A stretch of DNA of 35,286 bases. Source: a virus. Numbering within the stretch: the first letter of the stretch is position 1; every line of letters begins with the position of its first letter. The DNA lies in IMG/VR virus record IMGVR_UViG_3300032242_000796, positions 1-35,286 of that record. The stretch is one strand, 5' to 3'. The position numbers were made by a program, and so were the translations under genes. Below are positions 2,631 to 26,604 of this stretch, piece after piece. Under the pieces are notes generated by a model. It had not been told where the DNA came from, did no database searches, and saw only the letters and a list, made by a program, of their open reading frames with translations.

Positions 2631-3581
2631 TTAAGCCTCCGAATTACCCATATAGCGCAACGATTCCACGTTCCAGCCAGCTTTTTTACCTTCTTCCTTA
2701 TCACCGCCAAATATCGGCGCACCAGCGTCGCCAATACGTAATGCTTGAGATAACGCTTGAGAACCAACAGACGCCTGTGTTTGTATCGGACTAACAGGCT
2801 GTTGTTGTTGAGTTGTTTGAGTTGTCGCAGTACCTCTTGGAGCAGACGTAGGAGCTTGCTGCTGCTTGCCAAACAAAGTCGAATACACCGCTGGATACAA
2901 CGCACTAGACAACAATTTACTTTCTGTTGGACCAATAGCAGACTCGGTTGGCAATGGCACTCCGGGAGCCAACTGTTGCTGCGCGTACTCAGGGTTTACA
3001 CCGAGAGCGTTAGGGGTTGGTCCTAGGCTTGGGTCTACAACAGGCTGTCCGGTAGCTGCATCTACTGACCGTTCTTCAATAGGTGCTGACGGAGTAACAT
3101 CCGTTTGGAAACCTGCTTTTAATCCTTCAATCGTTCCAGATGTAATGCCGCCAACCGCAAATGCTTTAGCACCCGCTGACAATGCGTCAGATAAACTTTG
3201 ACCTTTAGCTAAAGCTGTCAATGTGGTTTGCGTAGACGCTCCTGTAGCACTGGAAGCAATTTGTCCAGCAACTTTAGAATCTACGGCAGAAGCAACTTCT
3301 GCACCAACGGCTTTACCGGCATATTGCCCCGCAGTGGCAGCAACATAAGAAGTAGCAATATCTTTAACGCTGCCACCATTGGCAGCAGTAACAACAGCAG
3401 AAGAAACAGCCGGAGGAACACCAACAGCAGTTAATGCAATTGTCTCAATAACTGGCAATGGATTTTTAATGACGTTAGTAACAGCTTTACCAACATTAGC
3501 CGCAACTTTTTGAACGACTTTAGTAACAGACTTTACCGCGCTAGAAACGGCTTTAGTAACAGCTTTGACTGCGCCACCCAT
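2631..3581 (-). CDS. Ala/Val-rich amphipathic virion protein, probable ejection protein, 316 aa
   Basis: The N-terminus (residues 1-40) is a run of short amphipathic repeats of the form AVKAVTKAVSSAVKSVTKVV. It is followed by Ala/Val/Gly-rich hydrophobic segments to about residue 175, which could insert into membranes. The C-terminal half is Pro/Gln/Thr-rich and low in complexity. Start and upstream stop overlap as TAATG, with GGAGA as ribosome site. Podovirus ejection proteins often combine such helices and disordered tails, and the location supports this. No family is assigned with certainty. Confidence 0.68.
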   Translation of the reverse strand: MGGAVKAVTKAVSSAVKSVTKVVQKVAANVGKAVTNVIKNPLPVIETIALTAVGVPPAVSSAVVTAANGGSVKDIATSYVAATAGQYAGKAVGAEVASAVDSKVAGQIASSATGASTQTTLTALAKGQSLSDALSAGAKAFAVGGITSGTIEGLKAGFQTDVTPSAPIEERSVDAATGQPVVDPSLGPTPNALGVNPEYAQQQLAPGVPLPTESAIGPTESKLLSSALYPAVYSTLFGKQQQAPTSAPRGTATTQTTQQQQPVSPIQTQASVGSQALSQALRIGDAGAPIFGGDKEEGKKAGWNVESLRYMGNSEA

Positions 3582-4628: not shown

Positions 4629-5714
4629 TTAAACCCCGTAATATGGAACTTTAACAACAGTTGAATTAGCCAAAGTAAATTGCAAATATCCAGCGGGAAC
4701 CAAAGGCAAACTAGGCGTTGCAAATGTAGCTGTTGCGGAAGTTGGTTGACCAAGAGAGTTAATAGTCACACTATTGTTTCCGTTAATAACCATTGCGCTA
4801 CTTGTTGACGCATTTGCATTAGCAAGAAAGTGAACAGAGTTTGCGTTCCATGTAGCAATGGCTACGTTTCCGTTATAGCCAACAAAAAAACTTGCATTAG
4901 GATTAGATACAGCATTGTTTGGAAAGCCAGCAGCAGAAAAACTATAATTGCTGCTATTAATTCCCATATCACTATAAGCAGTAAAACCATCATTGATGGC
5001 TGAAATGCTTGCATACGATGTGCTACTGTTATTAGTGTTTTGAACAGCAACATAAGAATATGTAGAGGCATTTCCAACAAAGCTAGAAATAATACCAATG
5101 TCAGGATTAGACAATCCTCCACCAACATTGAGCGCACCAGTATTGGAGCTTGTCCCTCTATATGTAATGTTGACATTGCCAGCAGTTACATTGTTAAGCG
5201 TTGCGTTGCCGCTAGAAATTGTTACATTGGTTTGTGTGACGTTATCTGTTGTGCCGCCAGTAATCAAAACACTATTAGCGTTTTGGATAGACATCGTACC
5301 CAAGCCAGACACCGCAGAATTGCTAATGGCTATGGTTACGTTAGACGCAGAAGTCACGCGACCTTTAGCGTCAACCGTTACCTGAGACACCTGAGAAGCC
5401 GTGCCATACGTGCCAGCAGTTACACCGCTAGTATTTAACGTAGGGCTTGGGTAGGTTCCAGTTAAATCACCACCAGCAGAGCCACCGGGAGCCACACCTG
5501 TAATTGTTACGTTAGCCGCCGCTGTTAGCTGACCTTGAGCATTAACTGTAAATGTGCCTACCTGAGTAGCAGAACCATAAGCAGCAGCCGTAACAGCAGT
5601 GTTAGCAATAGAAATAGTTCCATTAGACGTAATGGGACCGCCAGTTAAACCCGTACCAGTATTGATATTGGTTACTGTGCCGCTACCGCCTGTGCTACCT
5701 GCTGTCTTTAACAT
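4629..5714 (-). CDS. Repeat-containing tail fibre protein, 361 aa
   Basis: The protein is rich in Thr, Ser, Asn, Gly and Val, as in phage fibres. Two copies of a fibre repeat are visible: residues about 39-69 ([20 protein letters not shown]) and about 103-133 ([20 protein letters not shown]), separated by [13 protein letters not shown], which is also common in phage fibres. The rest is a run of short beta repeats. A perfect AAGGAG lies before the ATG. It follows the adhesin cluster on the same transcript, so a receptor-binding or distal fibre role is likely. Receptor unknown. Confidence 0.82.
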
Positions 5715-8998: not shown

Positions 8999-10975
8999 TT
9001 AGAACCTCACTCTCAATTCATGTTCGTACTCAAAACCGTTGTACACAATTCCGGCACCGGACGATGTAACGGTCATACCTAAATATTTTCCGTATTGCTT
9101 TGCGTCAGTCTTATATAACGTGTATCCACCAGTACCACCAGACCAAGGTATTACAACACTGCTGTTGTTTATCCAAGGAATAATCATAGAAAAATTATTA
9201 ATCCAATTTATATTTGTTCCAAGAACAACTATTGGACTTGAATTACTTTCAGAATCTACGCTTACACTAATAGTTGACGCATTTTGCAATGTCGCTTCAA
9301 TACCAATCTTTAATGCTTGCTTGGTACGAATTGGGTCTTTCATTGGGTTCAGAGAAGTCTGAACATAACTGTTTATTGATGCAGTTGTGTTTGCATACAT
9401 CTTCACGCATGAAGTGCCATCGGTACCGTACAGAGTAATCTTTCCTCCAACGGGAACCGACGCAACAAACTTTAAATTGTCTCCAGCATTTGTAAAAAAC
9501 CATTTCTTCTCAAAGAATATAGCTTGTATGTATCTGCTACTGCTTGATGTTCCTAAGCCACCTGTGTACCTAAAATTAAATGCGGCACACAAAATGTTGT
9601 TCAACAAAACTTGACCACCATTAGCGTTGCCAGTTGTAAAGTCTATGTTTGGAAATACGCCGTCTAATGAATCAGAAATCTTTGACGTTGTTGAACCTAC
9701 CAACGCATACACACCGTAATCATTCATAAACAACACTGAACGGAAGTACGGGAAAATGGCATACGCTCTTTTTGTACCCACCGATGCACTGACGTTGGTG
9801 TTTGTAAATAGCGTCGTGCCAACCGTTGTAACTCGAACGTCTGAAAACACGTTAATGCTATCGTCGCCAAAAATATACAAAAAGTTATTAGCTGACAATA
9901 ATTGAACAATGTTTCCGTGCAATGTAGCGTCAGTAAGCACTACCGTACCAGCGGATACCGTTACAAAGTCACTGTAAGAACCAGCGGCTGAGTAGTAAAT
10001 TGTTCTACCGTTAGAAATCCAAACACGACCAGAAAACGATTGAATGCCTGAATTAATGCCGGTATTAATAATTGCTTTAGCTGTAGCGTTAGAACCACCA
10101 CCACTTGATATTGAAACTGTAATGTTGGCTGTGTTTGTATAACCAGAGCCGACATTAGTCATAATGACTTGCGTCACAATGTTGCCGCTAACAATAGCTT
10201 GACCTGCTGCATTAACGCCGCCGCCACCGGAAATAGTCACGGTTGGGTTAGACGTATAACCAACACCACCGTTAGTCACTAAAACAGCTACAGTGCCTTG
10301 AGCAAATGTGGTGATAGACGCTACAGCATTAGCACCAGAACCTCCGCCGCCGTTAAAAGTAACAGTCGGAGAAGACGTATAACCTGTGCCAGCTTCTAAC
10401 AAAGTAACAGACGAAACGGCATTAGCCGAGATGGTAGCAATAGCTGTAGCTTGTATTCCGTTCGTCTGATTCGGTGCGGATATAACGACAGAAGGGGCAG
10501 ACGTATATCCTGACCCTTTACTGACGATACCAATAGAACCCACTGAACCAATAGAAATTAAATCAACCGCATCCCACGTAAAGTAACCTTTAGCCGGGTC
10601 AATAATAAGAACACGGTCATTTTTCCACTGGCTAACATTCATGCCGCTGGTTGAGAACGTACCAGCCGCTGCTATTGTTCCTTTAACATTGGTTGTTAAG
10701 TTTACGTATTCACAGCTTCCGTCATCTTGAAAAGCTACTAAATAATCCGTAATGCCAATGTTTGCTGAGAAGAAATTAACAACAGTATGAGCAAATGTAA
10801 CGCTACCAACAGCGTCATACGTAGGAGTAATCTTTAGGTTGCCATAGCCAATAGGCATGGCGTTCTCAAGCCAGTAGAACTCATCGTCACCAATAGCCGT
10901 GCGGTTAGCTTTCGTGTTGACGCCACGAAAGTTCTTAACGACTTCATACGATTTTTTTTGTTCTGCCGCTGCCAT
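8999..10975 (-). CDS. P22 gp10-like packaged-DNA stabilisation / tail hub protein with repeat insertion, 658 aa
   Basis: The N-terminus (residues 10-45, with NFRGVNTKANRTAIGDDEFY) and the long beta-rich body with segments such as SGRVWISNGRTIYYSA match the family of phage stabilisation or tail-hub proteins that plug the portal after packaging. Between residues about 147 and 305 there are four tandem copies of a roughly 40-residue unit beginning G-x-GYTSxP-T-V and followed by a Gly-rich loop (GYT at about 156, 198, 239 and 278). This looks like a beta-solenoid insertion in the hub. It follows the gp4-like connector directly. Confidence is good for the general role and moderate for the exact homologue. 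Confidence 0.78.
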   Translation of the reverse strand: MAAAEQKKSYEVVKNFRGVNTKANRTAIGDDEFYWLENAMPIGYGNLKITPTYDAVGSVTFAHTVVNFFSANIGITDYLVAFQDDGSCEYVNLTTNVKGTIAAAGTFSTSGMNVSQWKNDRVLIIDPAKGYFTWDAVDLISIGSVGSIGIVSKGSGYTSAPSVVISAPNQTNGIQATAIATISANAVSSVTLLEAGTGYTSSPTVTFNGGGGSGANAVASITTFAQGTVAVLVTNGGVGYTSNPTVTISGGGGVNAAGQAIVSGNIVTQVIMTNVGSGYTNTANITVSISSGGGSNATAKAIINTGINSGIQSFSGRVWISNGRTIYYSAAGSYSDFVTVSAGTVVLTDATLHGNIVQLLSANNFLYIFGDDSINVFSDVRVTTVGTTLFTNTNVSASVGTKRAYAIFPYFRSVLFMNDYGVYALVGSTTSKISDSLDGVFPNIDFTTGNANGGQVLLNNILCAAFNFRYTGGLGTSSSSRYIQAIFFEKKWFFTNAGDNLKFVASVPVGGKITLYGTDGTSCVKMYANTTASINSYVQTSLNPMKDPIRTKQALKIGIEATLQNASTISVSVDSESNSSPIVVLGTNINWINNFSMIIPWINNSSVVIPWSGGTGGYTLYKTDAKQYGKYLGMTVTSSGAGIVYNGFEYEHELRVRF

Positions 10976-24654: not shown

Positions 24655-24767
24655 TGCTTGCCAGTTTATTTACAATCTTAGTCGGGGGGATATTTATGGG
24701 CATGGGCGTAATGCTTTTGACAGTCGTTGCATGGATTTTGTGGACTTTTTTAACGCCAGAGGATTGA
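24654..24767 (+). CDS. 37-aa single-pass membrane microprotein
   Basis: The ATG overlaps the previous stop (TAATG). The product starts MLASLFTILVGGIFMGMGVM and continues as one long hydrophobic Gly/Met/Val/Trp-rich helix, ending in the acidic TPED. It has no Lys or Arg. It closes the first early gene block; the candidate promoter -35 at 24764 overlaps its stop. With 23857-23943 it gives two membrane microproteins in the immediate-early operon. Role unknown. Confidence 0.52.
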   Translation: MLASLFTILVGGIFMGMGVMLLTVVAWILWTFLTPED

Positions 24768-24793
24768 CAAAATCCCCCACGCGCATGTATGTT
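24764..24793 (+). promoter_or_regulatory. Candidate promoter for the structured small RNA
   Basis: A perfect -35 (TTGACA, 24764-24769) overlaps the stop of the microprotein gene. An 18-bp spacer leads to TATGTT (24788-24793), four of six consensus bases. The expected start is near 24800, just before the structured segment. The -10 is weak, so activity is uncertain. Confidence 0.4.
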
Positions 24794-24799
24794 CCTAAC

Positions 24800-24902
24800 C
24801 GTTGACGTGATGGTCAATGAATAGAAGCCAGTTACACATGAGTCTGTCTCCCCGCCGATTTAGGGGAACCATCACCGGACTCAGCTGTAACTGGCTTTTT
24901 TT
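24800..24902 (+). ncRNA. Candidate structured small RNA of about 100 nt ending in an intrinsic terminator
   Basis: Hairpin 1: TTGAC (24802-24806) with GTCAA (24813-24817). Basal stem: AAGCCAGTTACA (24825-24836) with TGTAACTGGCTT (24886-24897), 12 perfect pairs, then seven T (24896-24902). Inside are TGAGTCTG (24839-24846) with CGGACTCA (24876-24883), one pair being T-G, and TCCCC (24849-24853) with GGGGA (24863-24867). The loop region GTGATGGT (24807-24814) is fully complementary to ACCATCAC (24868-24875), the only long unpaired stretch between the inner stems. No known RNA family is recognised. A 55-codon frame from ATG 24817 is an alternative but has only a weak ribosome site. Confidence 0.5.
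24825..24902 (+). terminator. Long-armed Rho-independent terminator of the first early operon
   Basis: The 12-bp perfect stem (24825-24836 with 24886-24897) directly followed by T7 is enough to stop rightward transcription after the small early genes. The large, branched apical part is not needed for termination, which is why I also list an RNA. Confidence 0.72.
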
Positions 24903-25204
24903 ATTGCCCAAAGCGTTTACCGTACCCCGCACGATAGTAGGCAGACTGACTGTACTGGCTCGGGAGAAATGCGGTTTACCTTGACCAAGGGGGACGGGTA
25001 CGCGAGTGTGCCGCCACAAGCGATAAACGGGCTAATAGGCTGATTGAGAGCGTCAGGGATGACGAGAAACATCGCCCGATAAATAAAGCAGCGGAACGCA
25101 GTATGACTGTGGACAACCAATAGGTTGAAGTATCGGCATGACTCATCATCATCCCTATACGTAGCCCTTGCTATTGCCAAAAGAAAGTGAGGTGAAAAAA
25201 GATA
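24903..25204 (+). other. Gene-free, hairpin-rich stretch; possible second structured RNA
   Basis: No good gene is seen on either strand; the longest minus frame (24917-25180) has five Cys and no phage-like features. Short perfect stems are dense: CGTACCC/GGGTACG (24921-24927, 24996-25002), CCGCA/TGCGG (24927-24931, 24970-24974), TGTG-CCGC-CACA (25007-25018), CGGGC/GCCCG (25028-25032, 25074-25078) around CGTCA-GGGA-TGACG (25051-25064), CCGATA/TATCGG (25076-25081, 25131-25136) and CAACC-AATA-GGTTG (25114-25127). Some may be chance. It looks more GC-rich than the AT-rich promoter segment that follows. Confidence 0.3.
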
Positions 25205-25701: not shown

Positions 25702-26604
25702 ATGGCAAATGACCAGAACGATTTCGCGCCTGAGGTACGCAATAGCGCATGGTGGAGTGGTGACAGTAGGAAAGCAGCCAACGGCAGGGGTAATGAAGCT
25801 GTCCTTGAGAAGCTAGGATTGAAAGAGCGTCCAGACCTGTCTCAAGTGGAAGCTGTCCAAATGGGTCACGTTATGCAGCCAACTATCGGCAGACTAGCGC
25901 AGGACAAACTACAGATTGAATTAAAGGACGCTGACTATGCTCTCACGCATCCGAAAGAAACATGGCTTAAATCTCACTTTGACTTCATATCTGCTGACGG
26001 GAAAACGCTGGTTGAAGCTAAAAACTACAATGCGAATGTTCGTAACAAGTTTGATGCCGAAGCCAACATCATTCCAGCGGCTGACATGGCGCAACTTGTA
26101 CACGAAGCGTCATGTCACGGTGTTGAGAACATTGTCCTTGCAGTCTTATTTGGTGGCCAAAACTTTGAGACGTTTGAATTCCACATTTCAGAAGCCCAAA
26201 AGGAAAGCCTCATTAAGGACATGGCGAGGTTTTGGGCTGCCGTCTCAACCAAGACTCCACTTGAGCCAGAGACAACAGAACAGACAAAACTTGTCTATGC
26301 TCAAGATAAAGGAACATCCATTGTCGCAATACAACCTATTGAGAAAGCAGCCGAAGCTCTCAAATTTGTTAAGGAAGAAATCAAGCGTTTAGAGGAAAAA
26401 GAGGAACATCTCTTAACTGCTATCCAGAATCATATGCAATGGTCGAGCGAACTGGTGAGTTTCGATGGAAAAGTTCTCGCTACATGGAAAAACTCTAAAG
26501 GCAGCAAACGATTCGACGCTAAGTTATTCCAAGCCCAACACCCCGACATCTACGAGAAGTTTGTCTCGGAAACGTCAGGTTCTCGCCGCTTCTTACTCAA
26601 GTGA
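25702..26604 (+). CDS. YqaJ-type viral exonuclease (lambda exonuclease-like), 300 aa
   Basis: PD-(D/E)XK nuclease core: WLKSHFDFIS (D94) followed by KTLVEAKNYN (E105, K107), with the upstream helix GHVMQPTIGRLAQDKL where the family usually has a Glu (Q59 here). The N-terminus RNSAWWSGDSRKAANGRG fits the family opening. Residues about 225-250 form a charged coiled coil (EEIKRLEEKEEHLL), a common C-terminal addition. It probably degrades 5' strands at DNA ends and hands 3' single strands to the RecT-like protein encoded two genes downstream. Confidence 0.86.
   Translation: MANDQNDFAPEVRNSAWWSGDSRKAANGRGNEAVLEKLGLKERPDLSQVEAVQMGHVMQPTIGRLAQDKLQIELKDADYALTHPKETWLKSHFDFISADGKTLVEAKNYNANVRNKFDAEANIIPAADMAQLVHEASCHGVENIVLAVLFGGQNFETFEFHISEAQKESLIKDMARFWAAVSTKTPLEPETTEQTKLVYAQDKGTSIVAIQPIEKAAEALKFVKEEIKRLEEKEEHLLTAIQNHMQWSSELVSFDGKVLATWKNSKGSKRFDAKLFQAQHPDIYEKFVSETSGSRRFLLK

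Follow-up and report, generated by a model that had tools for sequence, protein, structure and literature searches.

A pseudoknotted, apparently undescribed RNA element in phage genomes and the exchangeable structured RNAs found behind it

Organisation of the locus

The window is a 35,286 nt stretch of the viral record IMGVR_UViG_3300032242_000796, in which a small RNA had been predicted at 24800–24902. The genes upstream run in the same direction as this RNA element, and downstream of it are a second structured RNA, small ORFs without family matches and a gene for a RecE-like exonuclease (25702–26604). The parts of the locus are listed in Table 1.

Table 1. Positions of features in and around the RNA element
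Feature	Position	Strand	Evidence
Promoter: TTGACA (24764–24769), 18 nt spacer, TATGTT (24788–24793)	24764–24793	+	Window sequence and 48 distinct loci
Whole RNA element, approximately 100 nt	24800–24902	+	Fold, loop/bulge complementarity in relatives, 27-sequence alignment
P1 hairpin (24800–24805 with 24814–24819), loop carrying pseudoknot strand	24800–24819	+	Alignment
Pseudoknot 5' strand, GTGATGGT, in P1 loop	24807–24814	+	Relatives, alignment, second clade, RF02932-chosen set
P2 basal stem, 5' strand (partner 24886–24897)	24825–24836	+	Alignment
P3, 5' strand (partner 24876–24883)	24839–24846	+	Alignment
P4 apical hairpin (24849–24853 with 24863–24867)	24849–24867	+	Fold and alignment of close relatives
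Pseudoknot 3' strand, ACCATCAC, between P4 and P3 with no spare bases	24868–24875	+	Relatives, alignment
P2 3' strand, then T-run; terminator-like 3' end	24886–24902	+	Window sequence, 48 distinct loci
55-codon reading frame, rejected as gene	24817–24984	+	Start codon and indels in relatives
Type A cassette, a second structured RNA immediately behind element	24906–25190	+	Alignment of ten sequences

The nested fold of 24795–24905 alone has a predicted free energy of −48.2 kcal/mol (z −6.6), and none of 200 shuffled sequences was as stable. The coordinates originally given for the two complementary strands were confirmed in the window sequence. A perfect 12 bp stem followed by seven Ts had also been described; the stem is present, but the T-run (24896–24902) is not separate from it, as its first two Ts are also the last two bases of the stem. 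The basal stem and T-run can be read as either 10 bp followed by T7 or 12 bp followed by T5. The P4 loop is 9 nt and varies in both sequence and length, and the linker is mostly 1–10 nt across elements. From geometry, we infer that the helix and linker lengths would permit P1 and the pseudoknot to lie alongside P2 and P3. No correlation between linker and helix lengths was seen.

The predicted transcription start, at approximately 24800, is the first base of P1. The original prediction had placed a TTGACA −35 box at the correct distance upstream, and this is borne out by its 18 nt spacing from TATGTT and its presence in 43 of 48 distinct loci, where a −10-like hexamer follows 16–19 nt later. 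At the position of TATGTT, close relatives have TAGATT. Across the 48 loci P1 begins 6–9 nt past the −10 hexamer, and all 48 have a U-run of at least 6. The element thus has the sequence features of an intrinsically terminated sRNA, namely its own promoter and a 3' end made up of a stem and U-run. We conclude from these features alone that the promoter is of the sigma-70 type and that the 3' end resembles a terminator. Transcription, termination and any target are inferred, as there are no transcript, terminator or probing data.

Covariation in the stems and pseudoknot

Scanning with 20 bases of the left stem, without using the pseudoknot in the choice, found nine further viral contigs. In these the P1 loop is GTGATGGT, GTGAAGGT or GTAGTGGT, and the bulge between P4 and P3 is always its exact complement. 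Among close relatives the flanking P2 and P3 stems are unchanged while the letters of the loop and bulge differ. As these relatives were chosen by the stem, the exact complementarity argues on its own for real pairing.

An alignment of 27 sequences was built without regard to structure. All seven pseudoknot pairs form in all 27 sequences, five of the seven are doubly changed, and there are no G-U pairs. P2 is paired in 99.6% of cells, with eight of 10 counted pairs doubly changed, while P3 is paired in 96.2% (six of six counted pairs doubly changed) and P1 in 95.6% (two pairs with double changes). Over the whole structure, 98.3% of cells are paired, compared with 79% when partners are shuffled and 31–51% when they are slid. 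Compensatory changes exceed those for both column shuffles and slid partners, as required of a structured noncoding RNA. The original prediction had cautioned that the loop match might have arisen by chance and had ranked the stems above the pseudoknot as evidence. The close relatives and the fully paired pseudoknot of the alignment refute the former, and the pseudoknot proves to be evidence at least as strong as the stems. The compensatory changes that it had proposed to look for in homologous phages are found in stems and pseudoknot alike.

Further clades behave similarly. A second clade has a 10 bp pseudoknot whose middle four pairs vary on both sides, while 17 of 22 P2 and P3 pairs are invariant. 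Within clades, all counted pseudoknot differences are double changes (e.g. 25/25 and 114/114). The clade with GTGGAAA has variable stems around an invariant pseudoknot, from which it appears that the pseudoknot is free to change but does not always do so quickly. Overall, the pseudoknot ranges from 7 to 10 bp.

The alignment and clade sets were gathered partly with a descriptor that requires the pseudoknot, and are therefore biased. Covariance models lacking the pseudoknot found four loci (L167, L159, L220 and L228) in which it is intact, and also the pair L165/L218, which has only eight of 10 pseudoknot pairs. The latter (positions 33–147; TGTGACGGCA versus TGCCGCATACA) is the sole relative seen with a damaged pseudoknot.

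An independent set was chosen solely by scanning viral contigs for the core pattern of Betaproteobacteria-1 (RF02932), an orphan structured RNA. The strict descriptor matched within 400 nt upstream of the RF02932 core at 35 of 103 sites, compared with two of 1078 sites drawn at random from these contigs, and the U-run of these matches lies at a near-constant distance from the core. A terminator hairpin was found directly upstream at 46 of 94 distinct RF02932-core sites. In 41 of these 46 hairpins a pseudoknot of at least 7 bp can form with the 5' flank, where 3.9 would be expected from shuffled flanks. There are 46 different pseudoknot 7-mers among 82 distinct elements, and many of these phages share little element sequence.

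On this comparative evidence, we conclude that the pairing of loop to bulge is real, and that the element is a real structured noncoding phage RNA that is apparently undescribed. The pseudoknot is a clean natural experiment, in which several clades have swapped letters on both sides while the neighbouring stems remain fixed between close relatives. With strong covariation and no Rfam match, the element adds a structured RNA class to those of phages. One lineage (L303, L324, L328 and L341) seems to have, alongside the first, a second loop pairing of CGGAAG with CTTCCG.

Downstream RNAs and distribution of the element

The second structured RNA in the window, here called the type A cassette, has compensatory double changes at 22 of 67 predicted consensus pairs in an alignment of ten sequences. 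The minimum free energy of 24903–25190 gave no signal (z −0.2), and the conserved pairs appeared only in the later alignment. It carries the blocks AAGCGATAAACGGG and CCCGATAAATAAAGCA and has no Rfam match. Judged by its alignment, 24906–25190 is a conserved structured RNA that is undescribed. The U-run and the cassette are too close together to accommodate a promoter.

The element is carried by many environmental phages and usually has a structured RNA directly behind it. Among relatives, this position is occupied by type A or its kin at 35 loci, RF02932 or its kin at 19, a third type at 18, a fourth at five and a fifth at two, with partial overlap of these counts in source contig. In L202 (approximately 1735–1930) a type D cassette lies directly behind a TTGACA-N17-TAGATT promoter and the element is missing. 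RF02932 is directly behind the element in many phages, and both are found in early phage regions, but it is a separate RNA with its own fold; relatives carry it beside the element rather than as the element, and its covariance model matched neither the element nor the cassette in the window. RF02932 without the element was found in Burkholderiaceae genomes and in Acidovorax phage AP1, and the element was missing from the chromosomal copies examined. In Burkholderiaceae contigs (L292–L295) RF02932 often occurs twice, 3–40 kb apart per contig, and some of these four regions have transposases close to it, along with genes resembling defence genes (Shedu, KAP NTPase, MTES_1575 nuclease and CHAT).

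The comparison of loci shows that the locus has two parts, with the element at its 5' end and one of several exchangeable structured RNAs behind. The original prediction of a self-contained RNA gene overlooked the cassette, and the element may be only the first half of such a locus. The orphan Betaproteobacteria-1 RNA is placed in phages and beside a physical partner, so that the function of both can be tested.

The RecE-like exonuclease has hundreds of relatives in viral contigs, which are from uncultivated sources, and in most of the loci that extend sufficiently the element is found upstream of the exonuclease, both being on one strand. One sense copy was found per phage record searched; weak antisense matches reflect the palindrome of the stem. 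The strict descriptor has a background of approximately six matches per 1.4 million simulated bases and 11 per 1.9 million bases of unrelated loci. Because chance matches were numerous with relaxed descriptors, these were not used, and E-values of the custom covariance models are rough. Exact matches to 14-mer and 16-mer patterns outside the family, in viral and bacterial genomes, were attributed to chance.

The whole window returned no match in Rfam 15 at gathering thresholds, and with E up to 10 the only matches for the region 24740–24960, to eukaryotic miRNA models and a single sRNA model, were at chance level and scored far below thresholds. Among cultured phages searched by DNA similarity, three queries gave no match to the element and a fourth gave RF02932-like matches only. 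A covariance-model search of 299 Burkholderiaceae genomes, run without a positive control, did not find the element. No description of the element or of RF02932 was found in the literature that could be searched, which excludes most subscription journals.

Four relatives (L178, L204, L251 and L252) lack both element and cassette, and we conclude that the element is not essential to the phage group. In these, TTGACA remains shortly before the leader of the downstream operon. In the unrelated 57 kb phage MW202545.1 a tRNA array is followed by the promoter, the element and RF02932, in that order. L214 contains two copies of the architecture, unrelated in sequence and on opposite strands (5409–5532, minus; 9804–10056, plus), the second of which precedes RF02932. 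A possible far member was seen in L212 (MW202753.1; approximately 2975–3100), with a CGCG stem, the loop CTGATAAC and its partner GTTATCAG, followed by a type A cassette; it shares no sequence similarity with the element and its promoter reading is ambiguous.

Possible roles of the element and comparison with known RNAs

We propose, with moderate confidence, that the element is a self-terminating phage RNA of approximately 100 nt that is locked into a compact fold by its pseudoknot, is made early in infection and acts in trans, the cassette RNA arising by occasional read-through. The fold, the promoter and the linkage to the cassette are shown by analysis of sequence; the remaining steps are inferred. 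Sequence comparison places the sigma-70-type promoter just ahead of P1, and after the linker P2, P3 and P4 form a long hairpin ending in the U-run. The P1 loop pairs over 7–10 bp with the 3'-side bulge that separates P4 from P3. By inference, P2 with the U-run would serve as an intrinsic terminator that releases the RNA. The pseudoknot may tie it into a compact, nuclease-resistant rod of two parallel stacks, P1 and the pseudoknot beside P2 and P3, which could present its shape to a host or phage protein.

Action in trans via shape is favoured because the shape is conserved despite variable sequence, the loop has no conserved phage mRNA to pair with, and the element is not directly followed by a gene. 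Conservation of shape suggests, but does not prove, a protein partner. Complements of the loop elsewhere in the whole window, and in the parts of relatives' contigs that were searched, are rare and at no shared place, and a phage mRNA target is therefore unlikely.

Across lineages, neighbouring genes encode a primase, a helicase, replication initiation, a RecE-like exonuclease and an Erf annealing protein, as well as an ArdC-type anti-restriction protein and a Mom-like DNA modification protein. This replication, recombination and anti-restriction neighbourhood points to host takeover or counter-defence. RF02932 and Acidovorax phage AP1 only suggest a betaproteobacterial host. More tentatively, and only as a possibility, the locus may belong to a widespread phage two-part RNA system in which a pseudoknotted 5' RNA, conserved in shape but variable in sequence, would act jointly with one of several exchangeable cassettes (RF02932 and others) to stop or divert some host process early in infection. 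Hosts or rival phages would then exert the pressure under which pseudoknot letters and cassettes are exchanged.

In these loci a separate promoter for the second RNA would not fit, and polymerase must therefore read through the U-run on occasion. This fits a single longer RNA just as well as a short RNA plus a cassette RNA, and the nearest rival to a stable RNA acting in trans is that the element is the 5' domain of one bipartite RNA of approximately 400–450 nt, in which the cassette is the active part and the U-run does not terminate transcription but is an unpaired linker or a site of processing. Only one promoter serves both parts, the cassette begins shortly past the U-run, a cassette without the element is driven by a promoter of this kind in L202, several relatives lack both parts together, and RF02932 is right behind the element in unrelated phages. 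We nevertheless consider the bipartite RNA unlikely, as the stem and U-run have textbook terminator anatomy kept at every one of the distinct loci, cassettes unrelated in sequence follow the same element, and RF02932 also occurs without it.

It is still more doubtful that the element is a conditional terminator, or attenuator, in which co-transcriptional folding of P1 and the pseudoknot tunes the passage of polymerase into the cassette RNA. It does lie between promoter and cassette, and transcription would reach the pseudoknot strand shortly ahead of the strands that close the terminator stem, from which a kinetic role can be inferred as possible. However, the pseudoknot is compatible with the terminator hairpin rather than exclusive of it, and a search for antiterminator pairing of the 5' part with either P2 strand found none beyond that in shuffles (means of 4.6 versus 4.9 pairs and 5.7 versus 5.5 pairs).

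The original prediction had also allowed for a plain large-loop terminator, here of the upstream genes, with an incidental loop match. Although there is a hairpin with a T-run and the upstream genes run in the same direction, this is very improbable, being contradicted by covariation of the pseudoknot and by the element's own conserved promoter just before P1. There is equally little to recommend a DNA element (replication origin or cruciform) or a replication primer RNA: the inverted repeats and the replication and recombination genes nearby are consistent with one, but G-U pairs are tolerated in P1, P2 and P3, and the promoter and T-run confer a strand. A 55-codon gene starting at 24817, the other alternative raised originally, has practically no prospect of being real, as the frame, though open in the window, has ATA in place of ATG in eight of 10 close relatives, is shifted by P4-loop indels in several relatives (e.g. 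L002 and L008) and does not change in the codon-like manner that would have counted against an RNA.

The element can be compared with known structured RNAs. In the pistol ribozyme, the loop of a 5' hairpin pairs inside the following hairpin, the partner strand being on the 5' side of an internal loop. The 5' hairpin loop of the element also pairs within the following hairpin, but its partner strand is 3' of P4 in 27 of 27 sequences and its linkers are variable rather than a conserved core. The pistol covariance model did not match 24740–24960 with E up to 10. The phi29 pRNA conserves shape with little sequence and has compensating loop pairs; these kiss between molecules, and the RNA serves the gp16 motor at the genome end. 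The element likewise keeps its shape with little sequence and compensating loop pairs, but its partner strand is in the same RNA, though sequence cannot separate intramolecular from intermolecular pairing, and the phage has an ordinary large terminase. No Rfam match to pRNA was found at 24740–24960.

ToxI consists of a series of short repeats that precede a toxin gene. The type III antitoxin RNAs, among them ToxI and the pseudo-ToxI of phages, are pseudoknotted and are found in a phage context with a terminator (PMC3475682). The element is likewise pseudoknotted and phage-borne with a terminator-like end, but it is a single unit without an Rfam match, and the next feature is another RNA, then small ORFs. 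As there are no tandem pseudoknot repeats ahead of a toxin gene, it does not qualify as a type III antitoxin. The put RNA of phage HK022 is a structured RNA made right after an early promoter, and it binds polymerase and prevents termination. The element is similarly structured and right after a promoter, but it finishes in a terminator-like U-run.
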